From the IMG/VR virus record IMGVR_UViG_3300032954_000052, positions 1 to 32,359 of that record: 32,359 nucleotides of DNA, one strand, 5' to 3'. Shown here piece by piece: positions 1,854 through 29,879 of the stretch; the stretch's first letter is position 1; each line of letters begins with the position of its first letter. The translations under genes and the position numbers were made by a program. The notes below the pieces were generated by a model. That model was not told where the DNA came from. It saw only the letters and a program-made list of their open reading frames with translations, and made no database searches. The DNA is from a virus.

Positions 1854-3182
1854 ATGAAAGTTCTTCTTCTCGACACCTTCAGCTGCTGCTTTCTTGATTT
1901 CGCTCTGCGGTTGCAAGCCGAAGGGCACGAAGTCCGCCTCTGGGTTGCTCCGAATAAGGTCGATGGCAGCCGAATTGGCACTGGTGATGGCTTGGTTAAG
2001 CGAGTTGAAAACTACCGCAGCAGCCTTTCTTGGGCTGATTTGATCTGTGTCTCTGACAATGCGAAGTACGTCCGGGAGCTTGACTCGCTGAAAAAGCAGG
2101 GCTACCCGATTTTCTACGCTGGTGCGGAGCCGATTTCTTGGGAAATGGAGCGGCAGGTCGGGCAGGAAGTGATGGAAGCGGCAGGAATCGAATGCCTGCC
2201 TTCCCTTCATTTCAAGAATTACGATGAAGCCATCGCCCATCAGCGGGCAAACATGAATACCAGGTATGTCTGCAAGCCCTGTGCTGACGTGGACAAAGCC
2301 CTCTCTTATGTTTCAAAGTCCGGCAAGGACATGATTTTCATGCTGGAGCGGTGGAAGAGGCAGTTTAAAAAGCCTGTGCCGTTTATCTTCCAGGAATTCT
2401 GCCCTGGGATTGAAGTCGCTGTTGGTGGATGGGTAGGGCGCAATGGCTTCCTCAGCTACGTTCTTGAGAACTTCGAGTTCAAAAAGCTGATGAATGGGGA
2501 GCGTGGCCCAAACACAGGCGAGATGGGCACGGTGATGAAGTACGTTCACCGCAGTCAGAGCAAGCTGGCGCAGGAATTGCTGGACCCGATTGAGGCAGAG
2601 CTGATTCGATGTGGGTACACTGGCTACATTGATGTTGCAGTTATGGTAGGCACAGAGGGGGAGCGAAAAGGTTGCTTGAACCCGCTGGAGTTTACCTGCA
2701 GGCATGGCTGGCCGCTGTTTCAAATCCAGCAAGCTCTGCATCCGCAGGTGGGGGATTGGATGCTCGATGCACTGCAGGGCAGAGACACTTTCGAGCCTGC
2801 TCCTGGGATTGCTCTGGGAGTAGTGGTTGGCATGCCCGACTTCCCCTTCGGAAGGATGAAGGAAGAAGAGCTGACAGGCTACCCGATCTGGGGTATTGAC
2901 CGACACAACCGCTACAACTTCCATCCCATTGATATGAAGCTGGGTGAAGGGATGGATGAAAAAGGCAACCGAGTGCAGATGATGGTGACTTCCGGCAATA
3001 ACCCTTGCGTAGTTACTGGAACTGGCCCATCCATCTCCCTTGCAAAGAAGGCTGCATATTCAATGTTCGATCAGTTGGAAATCCCCAACTCCCCGATGTA
3101 TCGAACTGATATTGGGGATCGGCTGGAGAAGCAGCTGCCGATTCTTCAGCGATATGGTTATTGCACTTCTTGGGTGTTTTAA
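1854..3182 (+). CDS. PurD-like ATP-grasp enzyme (phosphoribosylamine-glycine ligase family)
   Basis: The 442-aa product has the landmarks of phosphoribosylamine-glycine ligase: a Rossmann-like N-terminal start, the GPNTGEMG motif at residues 218-225 (GPNTGGMG in PurD), NPLEFTCRHGWP at 276-287 matching the family's metal/ATP-binding EFN-R-GDPE region, and a C-terminal YRTDIGDR stretch typical of the PurD C domain. The length matches PurD (about 420-430). PurD joins glycine to phosphoribosylamine using ATP in purine synthesis. Here no other purine gene is near, and the N-terminal segment lacks the usual PurD glycine-rich start, so the true substrate may differ. The gene sits inside the late tail block, between a small putative virion protein and a tail-fibre-like protein whose ATG follows its stop directly. 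That context suggests a virion-related or DNA/peptide-modifying ligation rather than housekeeping purine synthesis (inference). Confidence 0.8.
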   Translation: MKVLLLDTFSCCFLDFALRLQAEGHEVRLWVAPNKVDGSRIGTGDGLVKRVENYRSSLSWADLICVSDNAKYVRELDSLKKQGYPIFYAGAEPISWEMERQVGQEVMEAAGIECLPSLHFKNYDEAIAHQRANMNTRYVCKPCADVDKALSYVSKSGKDMIFMLERWKRQFKKPVPFIFQEFCPGIEVAVGGWVGRNGFLSYVLENFEFKKLMNGERGPNTGEMGTVMKYVHRSQSKLAQELLDPIEAELIRCGYTGYIDVAVMVGTEGERKGCLNPLEFTCRHGWPLFQIQQALHPQVGDWMLDALQGRDTFEPAPGIALGVVVGMPDFPFGRMKEEELTGYPIWGIDRHNRYNFHPIDMKLGEGMDEKGNRVQMMVTSGNNPCVVTGTGPSISLAKKAAYSMFDQLEIPNSPMYRTDIGDRLEKQLPILQRYGYCTSWVF

Positions 3183-3656
3183 ATGGCTACGACACCAGTT
3201 CCAGGTCCGGGGCTGAATCCCCCGCCAGTGCCCCCGCAGCAAGCTGGGCAGATTGTTGACCCAAAATGGCTAGATGCGGTGCGAAATCGACTGCTCGCTA
3301 CGTTGACTGGCTTACAAATTGGCACCGGTAATGACGTCGGAGGCAGCTCTGCTCAGAGCCCGTCTGGCCAGGTGGTGCTGACACTTAATCTTAATCCTAC
3401 TGGGGTTACTGCTGGGACGTATGGTGATTCGACTCATGTGGGGCAGTTTAATGTGGACGCGAATGGGCGGATTCGTGGGGCGGCGAACGTGGCAATTGTC
3501 ACGCCGCCCATGCAATTCGGGCCGACATCCGGTCGCCCAACGGGGGTGAGTAATGGAGTGTGGTATCTCGATACGAGCCTCACTCCGGTGCGTCCTGTCT
3601 TGAGTTATTCTCCAAGCAGCACGGGATGGATTGATGCGGCAGGGAATAATGTGTAG
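3183..3656 (+). CDS. Tail-fibre-like structural protein
   Basis: The 157-aa product has a Pro-rich N-terminus (residues 1-25). A repeat-type segment GTYGDSTHVGQFNVDANGRI follows, which matches the short beta-hairpin unit seen in many phage tail fibres. The C-terminal module reads GPTSGRP..VSNGVWYLDTS...GWIDAAGNNV and resembles a common phage tail module (RP..VGQ.YFDT..G.P.W...WVDA.G). The same module closes the protein at 4162. The start codon follows the ATP-grasp stop without a gap, implying translational coupling. Probably part of the receptor-binding apparatus or its chaperone. Confidence 0.65.
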   Translation: MATTPVPGPGLNPPPVPPQQAGQIVDPKWLDAVRNRLLATLTGLQIGTGNDVGGSSAQSPSGQVVLTLNLNPTGVTAGTYGDSTHVGQFNVDANGRIRGAANVAIVTPPMQFGPTSGRPTGVSNGVWYLDTSLTPVRPVLSYSPSSTGWIDAAGNNV

Positions 3657-3695
3657 TTTTCCTCCGCGATTACTTTTTAGTAATCCCGGTAAATA
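3657..3695 (+). repeat. Dispersed palindromic element, copy R3
   Basis: CCGCGATTA, spacer CTTTTTAG, TAATCCCGG, flanked by TTTTCCT and TAAATAA. It begins inside the stop region of the previous gene and ends 35 bp before the ATG at 3731. Confidence 0.9.
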
Positions 3696-3730
3696 ATGAC
3701 CTTCTCACCTGGCTAGGGGTTAACACCTAA

Positions 3731-10229: not shown

Positions 10230-10447
10230 CAATGACGGTAGCTGAAGCAATTGCACTGATGCTGCAACTGACCACGAGTCTGGCCCAAGCGGCTGCGAAT
10301 ATTCAAACCATTTCTACGATGGTGCAGCAAGCGCAAGCGGCAGGACAGACCGCGTTCACGCCGGAGCAGTGGGCAACGATTCAAGCGATTGATACGAATG
10401 CCAGACAAGCTCTGATTGACCAGATCACGAAGGCATTGCAGAAGTGA
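10226..10447 (+). CDS. Hypothetical helical protein, 73 aa
   Basis: The product is a nearly all-helical, Ala/Gln/Thr-rich small protein ([21 protein letters not shown]...). It has no membrane segment long enough to be certain and no Cys. It is translationally coupled to the 45-aa gene through ATGA and is the last plus-strand gene of the late block. Function unknown. It ends just before palindromic element R4 and a terminator. Confidence 0.65.
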
Positions 10448-10456
10448 TTGGAGTTA

Positions 10457-10492
10457 TTTACCGGGATTAATAAATAGTAATCACGGAAGGAA
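10457..10492 (-). repeat. Dispersed palindromic element, copy R4
   Basis: Read on the minus strand it shows GATTA, spacer CTATTTAT, TAATC, like R1 and R2. It lies at the 3' junction of the late and replication blocks rather than upstream of a gene, and is directly adjacent to the terminator at 10496. Confidence 0.85.
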
Positions 10493-10495
10493 ATA

Positions 10496-11738: not shown

Positions 11739-14152
11739 TAGCCGCATTCTCCCCAAGAAGATTCACTGCTCACAACCCCTACCGGTATGTATAACGGATC
11801 GGCGTAGGGAATGCAAACAGAGTTAGCAATTTGCAGGATTCTCTGTTCAAGTTCAACTTTCTTCGCAGTCGGCACCTGGAAAACCAGCGAATCGTGCACC
11901 TGTAGCAGCACTTGAAGATCATCCTCAGAGAGATTTTCTTCCAGGGCCTCCCAAATTCGGTTCACCAAACACGCCACACCACTCTGGGGGATTGCCGCCA
12001 CGGCTTGATTAAACACATTCCCCTCGGGTTTATCGAAGTAAAACACCCGATAGCCGTATCCATTCTCAACATATCTGCGGGTTTTTACTTGATGAATTAC
12101 ATCCTTGTGCCACTTGTCGAGTTCCCAGCACAGCGACAAGTACCAGCGCTGAATTTTTCTGGTTTGGTCAACGTCAAGCCCAATGCGAGGCGCGATACCT
12201 TCAGCAGTTCCCAGGTAGTGCGTGCCATGGCACAGGCTTTTGAACAGCTTGTATTCGGGGGAGTTTTTGGATTTGGTGTCATCCTGGTAATATTCCTTCA
12301 TAATTTCAACATAGGGCTTTTTGCCGGACTTGAAGCAGTTCATCAGCCACTGACAACCTGACTCCCATGCTACGATTCGAGCGTCAGCAGAGTCGAGATC
12401 AATGTCGAACATGGTCATGCCAGGATCGGGGATGAACAACTCCCGGATGTTAGGGAGTTCGAGGGAATCTTCGAAGTCTCCGGTATCCCCGCCCTTGGGG
12501 ATGTTCTGCATGTTCATGCCAGTGCCGAAGGCATTTTTTGAGCTGGCAAAGCGATAGGTGTCGGTGCCCGCTACATTGAACGTGCAGCGCATTCTGCGAT
12601 CACGGTCGAGCGCGGCGAGGATAAACGTGGAGTGGAACACCCCCAATGAACGGAGTTCGGCCATTCGGCGGATGATGGGCCACAGGATAGGCTCACGTCC
12701 ACCGAGGGTTTGGAGGGCCGCATCAGCTGTGGTTACTCCTCCGGTTTTGGAGTGCAGAGGGCGGAGCCCCATTTGCCGGTAGAAGAAATCCTGCATCTGC
12801 TTTGGCGAGCGGATGTTCAGGGGATAACCGACAATGTTGTGGATGTAGTTTGTGCGGGCTTGGGCTTCATTCATCAGGGACATGGATAGCTCTGCCCGCT
12901 TTTTCTCGTCCACGCGCACGCCCCGGATCATGGCTTTCAGCACACGATGGCGAAGGCGCTGCTGAAAAGCATTAACCTCTTCGAGCTTCATCTGCCGCAG
13001 CACACTCTTTAGGACATGATAGATGGCGAGAGTGCGGCAGCTGTCAGTGGAGCAATAGCGCCAGTACTGCATTTCGCCTTCACCATCTTCACCTTCCTTC
13101 CAAGTGGTGCGGTCATCCTTCCAGTAGAGATGATCCTCGCAATACATGGAGGAGAGAAAACCGAGGTTCTTCGGCATGGATGAGAATGCAGAATGCTGCA
13201 TAATCATCGTGTCGGCGATGTTTTCAGGGTTGGGGAGGATGCCCCAATGACGCTCGATGTACTGCAAGTCGTAGTTGAAATTCTGGCCAACGAGAAGAAC
13301 GTTGGGGTGCATGAGGATTCGAACAATACCTGCAACGAGTTCAGCTTCTCGATCGGCGGACCAAAAGCCCTCTGGGTTGTGGAGGGGGGCTAACTGTACA
13401 CAAAGAGCTTCGGTGTTCGACCATGCAAAGGAAATGCAGGTGATATGCCCACCGCGAGTTTCAATGTCGCAGGCAATGGGGAGCTTCTCGGACGAGTCTC
13501 GGATACGGTCGTAGAGACAATCGAGAGCATTAACCATGAGGTCATGCTGGGAATCGGAGTTATTTTCCGCGATTACAAATTTGTAATCGCGGTGGAAAAG
13601 CCCTGAAGTTTCACTGTTTCTCACCACTCGCCGGAGGTCATGCACCATCCAGGGCCTACGGCTCCACTGCGTATGGATAATTTCATGGCGAAGGGTCGGG
13701 ATGACCTTGAACCCTTCGGTCAGCACCGAATCCATGATTGAGCTACGGTAGTTGTAGGAGGAGGTTTGCCCCGTGAGGGCGAATAGCGCCACATCTCCGA
13801 CCGTGCAAATCACATTGGGTTTCACCCTACGGATTTCCTCTCGCAACTCCATACAAGCATCGAACAACTGCGGGGAGATGTATTTGCCCTGGAAAAACAC
13901 ATGCTGAGGGGTTATGTCTTTCTTTTTCTCAGCAATGTGGTTTGCCCCAGGGAATTGCCGGGTTTTCATCACCATTGTGAGGTAGCAATCATCACGGCGG
14001 ATGCCTGCCTCCTGCATCATCTTCGTGAGTTCGAAGCCACCCCCGCCGATGAAGGGCTCTCCCCGGCGAAGGTCAAGCTCATGCGGGGCATCCCCCACAA
14101 TCATAATCTTCGCGTTGGCTGGGCCGGAGGGGGTAATTTGCAATGCTGCCAT
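11738..14152 (-). CDS. Family A DNA polymerase with fused uracil-DNA-glycosylase-like domain
   Basis: The 804-aa product has three parts. Residues about 10-180 form a uracil-DNA-glycosylase-superfamily domain (IMIVGDAP at 17-23, GEPFIGGGG at 31-39). Residues about 224-380 are a DnaQ-like 3'-5' exonuclease (DIE at 229-231, NFNYD at 291-295, D370). Residues about 395-804 are the PolA catalytic region, with motif A around D585 (DLDSADAR) and motif C QVHDS at 751-755. Motif B reads KSLCHGTHYLG, with His where most PolA enzymes have the nucleotide-contacting Lys. It is the replicative polymerase of the phage. No 5' nuclease domain is present. The glycosylase-like and exonuclease domains are joined by a linker (residues 185-197) encoded by a copy of the dispersed palindrome. 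The ATG is preceded by GAGAG. A promoter/terminator-like palindrome lies just upstream. Confidence 0.95.
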   Translation of the reverse strand: MAALQITPSGPANAKIMIVGDAPHELDLRRGEPFIGGGGFELTKMMQEAGIRRDDCYLTMVMKTRQFPGANHIAEKKKDITPQHVFFQGKYISPQLFDACMELREEIRRVKPNVICTVGDVALFALTGQTSSYNYRSSIMDSVLTEGFKVIPTLRHEIIHTQWSRRPWMVHDLRRVVRNSETSGLFHRDYKFVIAENNSDSQHDLMVNALDCLYDRIRDSSEKLPIACDIETRGGHITCISFAWSNTEALCVQLAPLHNPEGFWSADREAELVAGIVRILMHPNVLLVGQNFNYDLQYIERHWGILPNPENIADTMIMQHSAFSSMPKNLGFLSSMYCEDHLYWKDDRTTWKEGEDGEGEMQYWRYCSTDSCRTLAIYHVLKSVLRQMKLEEVNAFQQRLRHRVLKAMIRGVRVDEKKRAELSMSLMNEAQARTNYIHNIVGYPLNIRSPKQMQDFFYRQMGLRPLHSKTGGVTTADAALQTLGGREPILWPIIRRMAELRSLGVFHSTFILAALDRDRRMRCTFNVAGTDTYRFASSKNAFGTGMNMQNIPKGGDTGDFEDSLELPNIRELFIPDPGMTMFDIDLDSADARIVAWESGCQWLMNCFKSGKKPYVEIMKEYYQDDTKSKNSPEYKLFKSLCHGTHYLGTAEGIAPRIGLDVDQTRKIQRWYLSLCWELDKWHKDVIHQVKTRRYVENGYGYRVFYFDKPEGNVFNQAVAAIPQSGVACLVNRIWEALEENLSEDDLQVLLQVHDSLVFQVPTAKKVELEQRILQIANSVCIPYADPLYIPVGVVSSESSWGECG
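13563..13599 (-). repeat. Dispersed palindromic element, copy R5, inside the polymerase gene
   Basis: The most perfect copy: TTTTCCGCGATTA, spacer CAAATTTG, TAATCGCGGTGGAAAA. It encodes residues 185-197 of the polymerase (LFHRDYKFVIAEN), between the glycosylase-like and exonuclease domains. It is the only copy inside a coding region. Confidence 0.9.
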
Positions 14153-16477: not shown

Positions 16478-16603
16478 GGTGAGTTTCCTTGGTTGAGGTT
16501 AGGTCGAGAGTGTTTCCCCGACGGATGAATGATAAACAGGGGAGTTCCAGGGTGCAACGAGTTTTCGGCAAGAGAAACAGAGAGAGGAAGGCTGCTAAAA
16601 GGG

Positions 16604-16643
16604 TTTTAAACCGGGATTACAATGGATTAATCGCGGTGGGAAA
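16604..16643 (+). repeat. Dispersed palindromic element, copy R6
   Basis: CCGGGATTA, spacer CAATGGAT, TAATCGCGG, with TTTTAAA and TGGGAAA flanks. It lies upstream of the minus-strand gene at 16477, in a 227-base gap. Confidence 0.9.
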
Positions 16644-16704
16644 CCACTCCTCCAGTTAATGGCTCTTCGGAAATAGGAGTGGAAAGTAGATGAACGCCGT
16701 CACC

Positions 16705-21303: not shown

Positions 21304-21537
21304 TTAAATCCCGAGTTCCTTCAGCAGGTCATCGGTGTTTACATCCTCCGGCCTCTGCTTCTTCGGCTTTGCGGCCGCGCCAGCCTTCGCCCGGATCTTG
21401 GGTTTCGGTACATCAAGCTCCGCGCGCTCTTTGCGGATGGCTTCGATGGCTTGCTTCATCTCCTCTGGGGTAATGGTGCCGTCAGCAGCTTTTCGACGCC
21501 ATTCGAGGATGTTTTCGTTGATGAAGGTGGAGGACAT
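21304..21537 (-). CDS. Hypothetical protein, 77 aa, with C-terminal LLKELGI motif
   Basis: The product has a helical N-terminus (NENILEWRRKAADG) with an acidic segment TITPEEMKQAIEAIRKERAE, a basic Ala/Lys-rich linker, and the C-terminus VNTDDLLKELGI. The tail recurs in the paralogue at 27731 (NTDELLGELGI) and, less exactly, at 25672 (ALLDELTGEE). Such a short acidic/hydrophobic tail on a flexible linker could be a docking peptide. The start at 21537 was chosen for GGAGGG just upstream; the longer frame overlaps the 54-aa gene. Confidence 0.7.
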   Translation of the reverse strand: MSSTFINENILEWRRKAADGTITPEEMKQAIEAIRKERAELDVPKPKIRAKAGAAAKPKKQRPEDVNTDDLLKELGI

Positions 21538-21538
21538 C

Positions 21539-21703
21539 TCAACCCTCCGGAAAATATTCGTCGGCCTTTTCAAGGGCCAGCCCAGCTTCAACAATCCCAT
21601 CGTTATTGGCCACAATGAGTGCCCATTCCATCTGCTTGAAAAGCTCTTCTGGAATGAGCACAAATTTCACTCCGTCAATCACTGCTTCTTTCGGATGGTG
21701 CAT
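21539..21703 (-). CDS. Hypothetical protein, 54 aa
   Basis: The ATG at 21703 overlaps the previous stop (TGATG). The stop at 21541-21539 lies just before the 77-aa gene and supplies its ribosome-binding site. The product (MHHPKEAVIDGVKFVLIPEE...) is acidic and helical with no known motif. Overlap on one side and site-sharing on the other make it a credible gene too short for routine calling. Confidence 0.7.
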   Translation of the reverse strand: MHHPKEAVIDGVKFVLIPEELFKQMEWALIVANNDGIVEAGLALEKADEYFPEG

Positions 21704-21954: not shown

Positions 21955-21973
21955 TTCAGTTTCTCCTAGAGGG

Positions 21974-22013
21974 TTTTCAACCGCGATTAATCAATAGTAA
22001 TCCCGGGGGAAAA
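21974..22013 (-). repeat. Dispersed palindromic element, copy R7
   Basis: CCGCGATTA, spacer ATCAATAG (CTATTGAT on the minus strand), TAATCCCGG with GGGAAAAC flank. It lies between the helicase stop and the gene at 21954, 19 bases before that ATG. Confidence 0.9.
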
Positions 22014-22029
22014 CTAGGTCAATCAAGGT

Positions 22030-24177: not shown

Positions 24178-24414
24178 TTAAGCGATGCGCCAAATGCGAA
24201 GAGAATCACCCTCACGTCTTTGGCAAAATTTAAAACCAGTGGTTCTGGACATGTTAGAGGCTACAGGCTTTCTGACGTAGGGGATTTTGATGCTATCCCC
24301 GATTTCCATCGCCCGGGCCGCCACCATTACAGGTGATCTACCCTTTCTCGGCAGTTCCGGGATCGGAACCCCTTTCTCTATGAGAAGGGCCGTATGTCGA
24401 ATGACTTCGGGCAT
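24178..24414 (-). CDS. Hypothetical protein, 78 aa
   Basis: The product reads KGRSPVMVAARAMEIGDSIK...TGFKFCQRREGDSLRIWRIA. This layout, a GDS segment and an ending KF..R.E....RIWR, occurs in many small phage proteins of unknown role. The start is the ATG at 24414 overlapping the previous stop (TGATG), with GGAG upstream; the GTG one codon earlier is less likely. Confidence 0.65.
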   Translation of the reverse strand: MPEVIRHTALLIEKGVPIPELPRKGRSPVMVAARAMEIGDSIKIPYVRKPVASNMSRTTGFKFCQRREGDSLRIWRIA

Positions 24415-24878
24415 CACACAATCTCCACTTCAGCTTCCCCCCAGCCTTGAAACTCTCTACAATTGCTGCAGATCGTCACACGCTGGGTTCGGATTTCAAC
24501 CCTTTTCGGCAGCCCGTCATACTCATAGGCTCCTTCCGGTTTGACCAGGTTTTTGATTCGAAGTCTCGGATTCTCCTTCTGGATGAAAACCCCTTCGGTG
24601 TGGGTGTGCTCGCTGCCGCAGGAGCAGATTTGCGTATGCTGGAGTAGCACAACCGCAGTGCGAAACCAGCCTTCTGCGCGGAGCTTGAACTTCAAAACGT
24701 CAGCTTGGTGCTCCGCGCGTTCTGCTGCATTCATGAAACCCACATTTGCTGCAGCCCCGTTTGCCGCAATGGGCTTGCCCTTGTGGGAGGCTTTTTGAGC
24801 AGATTTGAGCTTTTTGATCTCTGTAGCGAGGGAGACGCTTTCTTCGAGAAGTGCATCGAGGTCAAGGTCGTCACTCAT
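24414..24878 (-). CDS. Zinc-binding-type phage protein, 154 aa
   Basis: The product has an acidic N-terminus (MSDDLDLDALLEESVSLA), a Lys/Ala-rich helix, and a C-terminal half with CSCGSEHTH and later CSNC, a plausible zinc ribbon. The opening LDLDALLEES resembles the LLxEL tails seen in three other proteins here, though at the other terminus. Coupled on both sides by start/stop overlaps. Function unknown; it may act in transcription or DNA processing. Confidence 0.65.
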   Translation of the reverse strand: MSDDLDLDALLEESVSLATEIKKLKSAQKASHKGKPIAANGAAANVGFMNAAERAEHQADVLKFKLRAEGWFRTAVVLLQHTQICSCGSEHTHTEGVFIQKENPRLRIKNLVKPEGAYEYDGLPKRVEIRTQRVTICSNCREFQGWGEAEVEIV

Positions 24879-25123: not shown

Positions 25124-25200
25124 TGCAACCCCCATTTCAGAGTAAAACTACGTGGTGGAGATTGTATTTTGCGGTGAGGTGGGGGAGGAATGCAACTCAG

Positions 25201-25244
25201 TTTTTAATCTACCGTGATTACTCTGGATTAATCGCGGTGGAAAA
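25201..25244 (+). repeat. Dispersed palindromic element, copy R8
   Basis: CCGTGATTA, spacer CTCTGGAT, TAATCGCGG, flanked by TTTTTAATCTA and TGGAAAAC. It lies about 75 bases upstream of the first gene of the replication block. Confidence 0.9.
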
Positions 25245-25260
25245 CGCCCCCCAAGTAGAA

Positions 25261-25294
25261 AGCCCACCTAAACCCCGCACGGCTTAGGTGGGCT
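25261..25294 (-). terminator. Candidate terminator ending the structured region
   Basis: A perfect 11-bp inverted repeat, AGCCCACCTAA and TTAGGTGGGCT, with a 12-base loop. On the minus strand it is followed by TTCTACTT. It lies between the structured region (25346-25663) and the start of the replication block. The plus-strand side has no T tract. Confidence 0.5.
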
Positions 25295-25345
25295 GATCGG
25301 AAGTCACAACCCAAGAGGGTCTATTCCGAGGAGAATGTGGTGAGA

Positions 25346-25663
25346 TAAAACAGGCCCCCATAAGGGAGGGTTTCGAAACAGAGGGCTTTGCGCACCATAG
25401 GCAGCGACATAGACGAGAGCGACGGACTCACGTGGATGTCTGCAACCGGACCCCAGCCGGTTACGCCTGTTTTACCTCAAAGGAAGGATCGGTCCATTAA
25501 TAAATGGATAACGCTTTGCACACGCCTGTTAGGTGGAAGCTATCCACTTTATCCAATCCTTCCTTTGAGGGGGCTGCACGCAAGGCCGGCTATCCCGAAG
25601 GTCCGACCACCCTGCTGCAGCCCGGCTCCCATCCTTTTGATAACCCAGCCATGGGTCGCTGGG
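25346..25663 (-). ncRNA. Highly structured non-coding region, candidate RNA
   Basis: A chain of adjoining inverted repeats fills most of the 535-base gene gap. TAAAACAGGC (25346-25355) pairs with 25465-25474. A perfect 15-bp pair, 25475-25489 with 25556-25570, begins at the next base and is extended inward by TGGATAA (25505-25511) / TTATCCA (25549-25555). GGGCTGCA (25571-25578) pairs with 25616-25623. CCCAGC (25644-25649) pairs with 25658-25663. Smaller hairpins lie inside (AACCGG/CCGGTT, TCCATT/AATGGA, GTGGA/TCCAC). The strand is assumed minus because both neighbours are on that strand and a terminator follows. No known RNA class (tRNA, tmRNA, group I intron, RNase P) is recognised. It could instead be a DNA-level structure such as an origin. 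Confidence 0.5.
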
Positions 25664-25671
25664 AAACCTTC

Positions 25672-26286
25672 TTACTCTTCGCCGGTCAGCTCGTCCAGCA
25701 GCGCGCCCGAGTCGATTGTATTGTCCTTCTTCTTCGGCTTCTTCGCCGCTTCCAGACGTTCGATCACCGGCTTCAGACTCGGATTGTCGCGCAGAGCCAG
25801 CTTCTCTGCATTCGTCTTGTTCGACAGGAAGGCCTTGATTGCCTCCGGCGTCTTGCCCGAGACTTCGACCAGAGCTTTCGCGAGAACCGACAGACCGGCC
25901 AGGGCGTTGCCTTCGCCACGCGTGCGTTCTGCACCCCACTCGCCGCGCGACAGACGTTCGATCAGTTCTTCGATAGCGAGGACTTGATCTTCGATATCTT
26001 CAAGGCCTGCAACCTCATCGCCGAGCTTCTGCAGCATGCCGTGTGCAGCGAACTTCGCAAACAGCGGGTTGTTGGCGCTGAGCTTGAAGGCGCGCGTTTC
26101 GCCGTTGATGAAGTCGAGGGTGACTTCGACATCGAAGCCATCAGCCGAGATGTCGGCGTTCTTCACCAGTCGGCGCTTGCCCGCGAATTCCACCTGACGA
26201 CCATCGGTCATTTCCACGGTCTGCACCGTGCGGGCCTTCTTCGTTTGCACGGCCTGTTCAGCCATCTGTTCGAGTGCTTCGGACAT
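25672..26286 (-). CDS. Early protein of unknown function, paralogue of 27731-28360
   Basis: The 204-aa product is acidic with a beta-rich N-terminal third (ISADGFDVEVTLDFINGETR), a helical middle (AHGMLQKLGDEVAGLEDIED), a Ser/Gly/Glu linker and the C-terminal part IKAFLSNKTNAEKLALRDNP, ending ALLDELTGEE. All these segments align in order with the 209-aa protein at 27731, so the two arose by duplication. It has a good promoter (26352-26381) and GGAG before the ATG, which suggests strong expression. The fold is unknown; a nucleoprotein or host-interaction role is possible. Confidence 0.7.
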   Translation of the reverse strand: MSEALEQMAEQAVQTKKARTVQTVEMTDGRQVEFAGKRRLVKNADISADGFDVEVTLDFINGETRAFKLSANNPLFAKFAAHGMLQKLGDEVAGLEDIEDQVLAIEELIERLSRGEWGAERTRGEGNALAGLSVLAKALVEVSGKTPEAIKAFLSNKTNAEKLALRDNPSLKPVIERLEAAKKPKKKDNTIDSGALLDELTGEE

Positions 26287-26351: not shown

Positions 26352-26381
26352 ACTATATCCGCGGTGCGTTCAGGGAGTCAA
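26352..26381 (-). promoter_or_regulatory. Sigma70-type promoter for the 204-aa gene
   Basis: Minus strand: -35 TTGACT (26381-26376), 18-bp spacer, -10 TATAGT (26357-26352); five of six consensus bases in each hexamer. It lies in the 106-base gap upstream of the gene at 26286. Confidence 0.6.
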
Positions 26382-26903: not shown

Positions 26904-26920
26904 AGCCCCTGAACGGGGCT
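26904..26920 (-). terminator. Rho-independent terminator of the early small-gene block
   Basis: On the minus strand AGCCCC and GGGGCT form a 6-bp stem with a 5-base loop, followed by TTTGTTCGTTT. It lies just downstream of the 79-aa gene and overlaps the approach to the parS-like site. Confidence 0.6.
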
Positions 26921-26921
26921 A

Positions 26922-26939
26922 AGAGAGAGAGAGAGAGAG
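26922..26939. repeat. (AG)9 dinucleotide tract
   Basis: Nine AG units between the terminator and the stop of the 79-aa gene. Simple sequence; no function is assigned. Confidence 0.8.
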
Positions 26940-26959
26940 GGATGAGGCGTGGCGAGAGG

Positions 26960-27366: not shown

Positions 27367-27385
27367 TGCTGAGAACCTCCAATTA

Positions 27386-27422
27386 TTTACCGCGATTACT
27401 CTATGTTAATCCCGGTGGGAAA
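27386..27422 (+). repeat. Dispersed palindromic element, copy R9
   Basis: TTTACCGCGATTA, spacer CTCTATGT, TAATCCCGGTGGGAAA. Same spacer as R10. It lies 19 bases upstream of the ATG at 27366. Confidence 0.9.
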
Positions 27423-27432
27423 CCCATTTCAT

Positions 27433-27730: not shown

Positions 27731-28360
27731 TCACTCTTCCACCGGAGCCGGGGCGAGCTTCTTCTTTCTGGTGCGGGTGTTGGGCTTCTTGGGAGCTTCA
27801 ATGAGAGCCGCGCCATTGCCCGCATCGGGATCGCCGCCATCCTCAATGCCCAATTCGCCCAGCAATTCATCCGTATTCACGCCATTGGATACGGTCGCAG
27901 CCGTCAATTCGGCAATGATCGCAACCACGCGCGGGTTTTTCTTCAACGCCGCACGCTGCTCTTTGGTCTTTGCACTGAGGAAGTCCTTCACATAAGCTTC
28001 ATCCCGCCCGGTCATGACAATGAGAGCGCGAACGAGGATGTCATTGGACTTGGGGGTGGATTCGCCCGCTGCACCACGCCCCTCGTTCCATTGACCGTCC
28101 GGTGACATGAGCCGATCAGCCACCTTCTTCACGGCGGCATATTTGTCTGCCACCGATGCGGGTTGCCCATTCTCCACATTGCGGGAGATCGCTGCGGCAT
28201 CAACGAGCTTTTGCTTCAGCCCGTGGAGAATCGCCATATCGCGGATTTCCGGGCGGAGCTTATTTGCGTCGATGATGATTTCCTGCCCACCCGAGAAGGT
28301 GAGCGTGAGCGTCATTTTCGGCACGAAAAGGTCAGCGGAGATGGTGGAGTTCTTTGCCAT
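27731..28360 (-). CDS. Early protein of unknown function, paralogue of 25672-26286
   Basis: The 209-aa product shares the segment order of the 204-aa protein: STISADLF and a strand region TLTLTFSGGQEI, then HGLKQKLVDAAAI, later VKDFLSAKTKEQRAALKKNP, and GVNTDELLGELGIEDGG near the end, followed by a basic extension (RTRKKKLAP). The LLxELGI motif is shared with the 77-aa protein at 21304. The start at 28360 was chosen because homology begins there; the upstream extension in the same frame looks non-coding. Two diverged copies in one phage suggest division of labour or an evasion-driven duplication. Confidence 0.7.
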   Translation of the reverse strand: MAKNSTISADLFVPKMTLTLTFSGGQEIIIDANKLRPEIRDMAILHGLKQKLVDAAAISRNVENGQPASVADKYAAVKKVADRLMSPDGQWNEGRGAAGESTPKSNDILVRALIVMTGRDEAYVKDFLSAKTKEQRAALKKNPRVVAIIAELTAATVSNGVNTDELLGELGIEDGGDPDAGNGAALIEAPKKPNTRTRKKKLAPAPVEE

Positions 28361-28473
28361 GATAATTAGCCTCTGTTTCATTGCCCCATCGGGGCGAATT
28401 CGCGAGTCGGTCGCGCACCGGACTTCATGTAGATCAGTGTACAGCAAACTGCAGAGTGTGTGATTGATATTTG

Positions 28474-28620: not shown

Positions 28621-28637
28621 GCAGCCTCCATAATGGG

Positions 28638-28677
28638 TTTTGTGCCGGGATTACTCTATGTTAATCGCGGTAGAAAA
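28638..28677 (+). repeat. Dispersed palindromic element, copy R10
   Basis: CCGGGATTA, spacer CTCTATGT, TAATCGCGG, followed by TAGAAAATC. It lies 17 bases upstream of the ATG at 28620. Confidence 0.9.
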
Positions 28678-28683
28678 TCATAT

Positions 28684-29577: not shown

Positions 29578-29838
29578 ACGGGGGAGGGGGAAAATTTCCT
29601 CCAGCAATGAAAATTTGCAAGGCACCCCCCTATTTTTTCTGAAATTTTTCAACTCTCTCAGAACCTGACTCGATTTTCTATTCTTCTTCTTGTTCTTCAT
29701 CGACTGTGTTGCGGGATTTTTTCTGTTTACTACTTACCCGCGCGCCAGTAATCGTAAAATGCAATCGCGAGAGTAGCGAGACCCCCTGCACTCCCCATTT
29801 CCCAATTTCTAAAAATTTTTTCAGTAATTTTCTCCCCA

Positions 29839-29879
29839 TTTCCTACCGTGATTACTTTTTATTAATTTATGCAGAAAAT
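29839..29879 (+). repeat. Dispersed palindromic element, copy R11 (degenerate)
   Basis: CCGTGATTA, spacer CTTTTTAT, then TAATTTATG instead of TAATCGCGG, followed by AGAAAAT. The right arm is decayed. It lies 113 bases upstream of the terminase block. Confidence 0.7.

Follow-up and report, generated by a model that had tools for sequence, protein, structure and literature searches.

Phages are known to encode antisense RNAs that act on single ribosome binding sites, such as C4 and sar, and in E. coli the sRNA 3'ETS-leuZ, which derives from the 3' external transcribed spacer of a tRNA, sponges host sRNAs. In the C4 RNA of P1/P7, loop bases block one phage ribosome binding site, located on the ant mRNA (PMC12197685). 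RegB of T4 inactivates early phage mRNAs at the Shine-Dalgarno sequence GGAG (PMC3014915). Large RNAs with several domains and pseudoknots, GOLLD and ROOL, are found at phage tRNA loci, and the linker of GOLLD can hold tRNAs (PMC12286853). The locus that we have studied here, in a stretch of viral DNA of 32,359 nucleotides (IMG/VR record IMGVR_UViG_3300032954_000052, hereafter the window), encodes an RNA that is not a member of C4, RegB, GOLLD or ROOL by any test run. Judged by sequence comparison, it represents a new and narrowly distributed phage RNA family, previously uncatalogued.

The RNA occupies the gap between a gene coding for a 204-aa protein (26286-25672, minus strand) and the next operon, and it follows the stop codon of that gene; as far as structure is concerned, the comparative evidence for it is firm. 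Two observations place it on the minus strand: an intrinsic terminator of 14 pairs with a TTTCT tail (25294-25257), which marks its end, and the same orientation of the homologues after the same gene. The terminator-like repeat that the earlier note, made from the letters of the window, had reported at 25261-25294 is indeed present. The 204-aa gene, whose product has no Pfam or PHROGs match and whose homologues hold the same position in all relatives, probably makes up the 5' portion of the transcript that contains the RNA. Upstream of it lies a sigma-70-like promoter, recognized by consensus match only (TTGACT-18-TATAGT, 26352-26381, minus strand), and no promoter-like site was found on the minus strand between the gene and the RNA. 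Neither tRNA nor tmRNA was found in the window, and Rfam gave zero matches in it at the gathering score and zero in the region even at E values up to 5, in agreement with the first impression that no known class was present.

Several other features of the window deserve mention. A palindromic repeat, probably an operator, lies between the terminator and the next operon (25196-25245, minus strand); it is of the type ACCGCGATTAC-n6-GTAATCCCGG and belongs to a set of about 11 copies (876-925, 1161-1210, 3648-3697, 10447-10493, 13551-13600, 16595-16644, 21965-22014, 25196-25245, 27374-27423, 28629-28678 and 29830-29879). Repeats of this type often follow the terminator in the relatives as well, and their sequence suggests an operator bound by a phage regulator. 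Three early proteins encoded on the minus strand (25672-26286, 27731-28447 and 21304-21663), the first two of which are paralogues, carry a C-terminal acidic motif of the type D-T/S-x-x-LL-x-EL, possibly a tail used for docking. A run of AG dinucleotides (26926-26940) directly follows a second terminator-like hairpin (26904-26920, minus strand), and the plus-strand gene block includes an ATP-grasp protein resembling phosphoribosylglycinamide synthetase (1854-3182, Pfam GARS_A).

In the gap after the 204-aa gene, the earlier note had described a chain of adjoining stems, with far more pairing than in neighbouring gaps, and had suspected a non-coding RNA with several domains, about 300-400 nt long. 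The stems all lie where it had placed them (P4, 25346-25474; P3, 25475-25570; P2, 25571-25623; and a hairpin, 25644-25663). There are 9 start positions of perfect 10-bp inverted repeats, where dinucleotide shuffles lead one to expect 0.05 (none of 500 shuffles had as many); for perfect 8-bp repeats, the figures are 16 observed and 0.9 expected. Folding compared with shuffled sequences gave z values of -6.1 for the minus and -4.8 for the plus strand. The pairing is exceptional, as had been claimed, but it is not unique in the window, since the gap 814-1405 likewise gives strong folding on either strand (z -3.9/-4.6); this second gap contains two of the palindromic repeats and may hold more. The covariation search in related phages that had been proposed revealed compensatory changes in four separate elements, namely the pseudoknot, P2, P3 and the 3' hairpin H3, which supports a multi-domain non-coding RNA of the suspected size. 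The analysis also led beyond the initial description by assigning the RNA to the minus strand, by identifying the 6-bp hairpin as stem 1 of a pseudoknot, and by adding an extra conserved hairpin (25297-25329) outside the range first considered.

At its 5' side, the RNA has an H-type pseudoknot (25628-25663, minus strand) with stem 1 formed by 25658-25663/25644-25649, stem 2 by 25651-25655/25628-25632, and UUAUCAAAAGG as third loop. In the window, the stem-1 loop bases CCCAU pair with AUGGG at 25632-25628, and in the relatives stem 2 takes the forms CCCGU/ACGGG, CCCCU/AGGGG, CCCGG/CCGGG, GCCGU/ACGGC and CCAGU/ACUGG. Across 12 sequences, 97% of the pseudoknot cells are paired and 7 of 11 pairs have changed on both sides, a result reached by none of 500 shuffles and, likewise, nowhere approached in slid registers. 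It is followed by the P2 hairpin (25571-25623) and a conserved CCUCA, and then by the P3 domain (25475-25570), with a closing stem of 15 bp plus an extension; both, like the remaining elements, lie on the minus strand. P2, P3 and H3 were compared by fixed arms, because MAFFT had aligned the short hairpin of the window and the P2 arms wrongly. P2 arms are 100% paired with their own partners and 55% paired when swapped between members; for P3 the values are 98% and 39%, and the same P3 arms are found in the relative G007. The P4 domain (25346-25474) contains the inner hairpins P4a (25444-25462, loop CUGGGGU) and P4c (25355-25370, loop UCCCUUAU), both of which in G003 and G007 keep their loops on stems that have changed, a comparison of three sequences only and weaker than that for the other elements; from their sequences, these loops could kiss (GGG/CCC, or GGC/GCC in two relatives). 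A linker, UUCUCCU (25329-25335), precedes H3 (25297-25329), which consists of an outer stem, a conserved internal loop UAG/UGUGNC, an inner stem and an apical loop, UCUU in the window. H3 is 94.7% paired, again with 7 of 11 pairs changed on both sides and none of 500 shuffles comparable. Because of these compensatory changes, the pseudoknot, P2, P3 and H3 can be taken as real structures. In agreement with this, the window aligned directly with G007 is similar over the pseudoknot, P2/P3, H3 and terminator, and it also has direct sequence similarity to G003 and G004. With compensatory changes in its stems and a terminator on the same strand, the RNA has the features of an intrinsically terminated structured non-coding RNA.

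The relatives were collected with the 204-aa protein as bait, which retrieved 13 viral contigs, and with pseudoknot and 3'-hairpin patterns, which added more. About a dozen distinct lineages of uncultured phages, all from IMG/VR, carry a homologous RNA at the same locus, next to homologues of the 204-aa gene that mostly have 67-81% protein identity to that of the window (the lowest about 55%). In every cassette-bearing contig that reaches far enough, the RNA comes after the homologous gene, shares its strand and ends at a terminator, which follows H3. The gene also has more distant relatives, in L014 and in two annotated phages, and there neither pseudoknot nor H3 was seen in the gap. The gene is present in MW202489 and in Microcystis phage Mel-JY34, with neither structure seen in the gap behind it. 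Protein alignment and pseudoknot pattern searches of the genome contigs of 84,980 species returned no relatives, an exact-stem P3 pattern had zero matches in viral contigs, and a single-sequence search with the protein encoded at 24414-24878 as bait retrieved zero relatives. A loose H3 pattern matched 74 stretches, the new ones among which failed the stem test, so that the family is rare in IMG/VR. Within it, the distance from the stop codon to the end of H3 is highly variable (136 to 1074 nt). In three lineages (L031, L033 and L034) the cassette consists only of tRNA, H3 and terminator, with no pseudoknot found, which identifies H3 as the constant part and the rest as variable.

The variable part is also where the tRNA genes of these phages reside. 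In the contigs of 15 relatives, eight tRNA genes could be detected, all of them inside the RNA cassette and several just before H3; no tRNA was detected elsewhere in the contigs concerned (L003, L010, L031, L033, L034 and L036). The cassette of L027 contains a degenerate tRNA just below the Rfam threshold, and several lineages have no tRNA. When the relatives' cassettes were searched against Rfam, only tRNAs matched. Just downstream of its pseudoknot, L003 also has a fold resembling a tRNA that ARAGORN did not call; its acceptor and T arms match, and its middle is oversized. L027 and L036 (2424-2505) have a further conserved stretch of RNA in common within the cassette (77% over 70 nt, E 1e-6) that lies near tRNAs, has no Rfam match and is possibly a second RNA domain.

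The most suggestive element of the family is the apical loop of H3. In most relatives it reads UGAGCCUC, that is, (U)GAGCCUC, and its complement, GAGGCUCA, is the extended Shine-Dalgarno sequence of 2-5 predicted genes per phage, on the coding strand. Genes were predicted with a simple home-made caller. GAGG can be extended by three letters in 64 ways, among which CTC ranks first before open reading frames (55 of 139 occurrences, or 0.40, compared with 0.11 for the rest). Of all heptamers preceding 570 distinct starts, GAGGCTC is the most frequent (40 cases). At these sites, 5-10 nt separate the end of GAGG from the start codon, and in 35 of the 40 an A follows GAGGCTC, giving 8-bp complementarity to UGAGCCUC. 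The 16S anti-Shine-Dalgarno sequence accounts for GAGG, not for CUCA. Each RNA was also scanned, heptamer by heptamer, against the gene starts of its own phage; leaving G003 aside, the H3 loop ranked first in each of the 13 phages having GAGCCUC as loop core, these phages being related and the trials therefore not independent. Shuffled-RNA tests per phage were modest (p 0.01-0.35), and the weight of the match lies in the same loop position coming first again and again across related phages rather than in the individual p values. The H3 seed is mostly unpaired in the hairpin, although in L024, L036 and L005 the isolated hairpin partly pairs it. G003, the nearest relative of the window, has kept the loop and shows no exact GAGGCTC among its 21 predicted genes, only near-matching sites. 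In G004, the loop is AAGCCUC and sites read GAGGCTT; this co-change is only hinted at by the sequences, the GAGGCTT gene not being an orthologue of the regulon, and we do not count it as proof.

The sites belong to a recurrent set of genes. A 220-aa paralogue of the 204-aa gene has the site G(A/G)GGCTC in 12 of 12 phages with the loop core (10 exact and 2 GGGGCTC), a 155-aa gene located after the RNA in 10 of 14, a 100-aa gene in 7 of 8, and a 150-170-aa gene in 5 of 6. By contrast, the gene hosting the RNA has the site in none of 16 cases, although it is a paralogue of a target. This implies that the site is a property of particular genes and not of a general style of ribosome binding site, and also that the RNA's own operon is exempt.

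The copy of the window departs from this scheme. Its H3 loop, shortened to UCUU, has no match to its own Shine-Dalgarno sequences, GAGGCTC precedes none of its 47 predicted genes, and its sites orthologous to the relatives' targets read GAGGCTA, GGGGGAT and GAGGTTC. This is what a joint loss of loop and sites would look like, in one lineage. The best complement found in the window RNA is the linker UUCUCCU, which faces AGGAGAA before three window genes (p = 0.075); as a replacement for the lost seed, this linker did not reach significance. The sequence thus portrays a structurally intact member of the family whose targeting would have been either lost or moved, possibly to the linker. The regulatory role that the earlier note had put forward is favoured by the loop/Shine-Dalgarno complementarity of the relatives, but the window's own copy has lost that loop, and whatever mechanism is suggested for it comes by extension from its relatives, that is, from the family.

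On the basis of these comparisons, we consider it fairly probable that this is a non-coding RNA whose H3 loop acts as an antisense repressor of a phage regulon at ribosome binding sites. From the layout of the locus and the loop complementarity, we infer transcription, processing, pairing in trans and repression as follows. The RNA would probably be transcribed together with the 204-aa gene from the host sigma-70 promoter, end at its own terminator and be freed by processing, in several relatives through maturation of the tRNA located just before H3. It would consist of a 5' pseudoknot head, a variable middle able to hold extra domains or tRNAs, and the 3' hairpin, whose loop would pair in trans with the ribosome binding sites of several phage operons and repress their translation. 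Phage genes would in this way be turned off together while the operon producing the RNA escapes. The pseudoknot head and P3/P4 have no part in this proposed mechanism. Such an RNA would most likely work most like C4, extended to several operons: both are phage RNAs with loop-exposed bases complementary to, and (here as a prediction) covering, a ribosome binding site on an mRNA of the same phage. Unlike C4, which acts on one mRNA (ant), a single loop here matches several operons and belongs to a larger, unrelated RNA with a pseudoknot and tRNAs. This complementarity is found in the relatives with a GAGCCUC loop and not in the window's H3, and there is no match to the curated Rfam family for C4-type antisense RNA. 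A regulatory RNA left over from tRNA maturation and ending at the operon's terminator also recalls 3'ETS-leuZ; here, however, the RNA is predicted to target ribosome binding sites of the phage, and a tRNA is lacking in several lineages.

Other explanations can be envisaged. The RNA might be an ornate RNA in the manner of GOLLD and ROOL, with a functional tRNA-bearing multi-domain body (a scaffold, a cage, or a binder of ribosomes or tRNAs) and a loop match that is secondary, or irrelevant in the window. It resembles them as a multi-domain phage RNA with a pseudoknot, several domains, possible kissing loops, a length of up to about 1.07 kb in G007 and, in relatives, though not in the window, tRNAs inside the variable region of the cassette, as described for GOLLD (PMC12286853). 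Yet the Rfam covariance models of GOLLD and ROOL match neither the window nor the relatives' cassettes, and the RNA is shorter, with two conserved ends instead of one 3' domain. The head is moreover absent in three lineages in which H3 persists, and the length is highly variable, all of which makes this reading rather unlikely. Still less likely, in our opinion, is a passive cassette combining a 3' untranslated region with tRNA precursors, in which the pseudoknot and H3 would protect the transcript end or guide processing with no regulation in trans. The position straight after the stop codon, the embedded tRNAs and the final terminator would all suit it, but it leaves unexplained why a constant loop on a variable H3 stem is the complement of a leader motif specific to a set of genes.

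Two further readings concern the motif and the DNA. GAGGCTCA before genes might be recognized by a protein or by a translation factor of the host, the matching loop being a coincidence or a reversed DNA-level copy. The motif is short and includes the generic GAGG core, and a DNA site could, by inference, stand in either orientation; yet the motif lies as far from the start codon as a Shine-Dalgarno sequence does (5-10 nt), the RNA orientation is always the complementary one and the stems carrying the loop covary as RNA, so that we regard this as improbable. Action at the DNA level, for instance as a replication origin, was also entertained in the earlier note and would suit the dense inverted repeats in an intergenic gap; it finds no support and can practically be dismissed, since the conserved structure is strand-specific and of RNA type: the covarying features include a pseudoknot, an internal loop typical of RNA and G-U pairs, and they invariably lie on the transcribed strand, ahead of a terminator.

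Returning to the antisense repressor that we favour, a functional parallel to it may be RegB, in that both would achieve a coordinated inactivation at Shine-Dalgarno sequences, RegB being a protein nuclease where we propose an RNA loop. More tentatively, and on balance somewhat doubtfully, these phages may mark a group of their own operons with an extended Shine-Dalgarno code private to them, GAGGCUCA, to be read by the cognate loop from the phage's single stable-RNA locus, allowing one-step translational control of a regulon, with lineages like that of the window having lost or rewired the code. If true, one loop matched to the shared extended Shine-Dalgarno sequence of several operons would constitute a translational regulon run by an RNA, analogous to that of T4 RegB. 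It would also give a concrete and testable function to a structured, tRNA-carrying phage RNA, a class to which GOLLD and ROOL belong.
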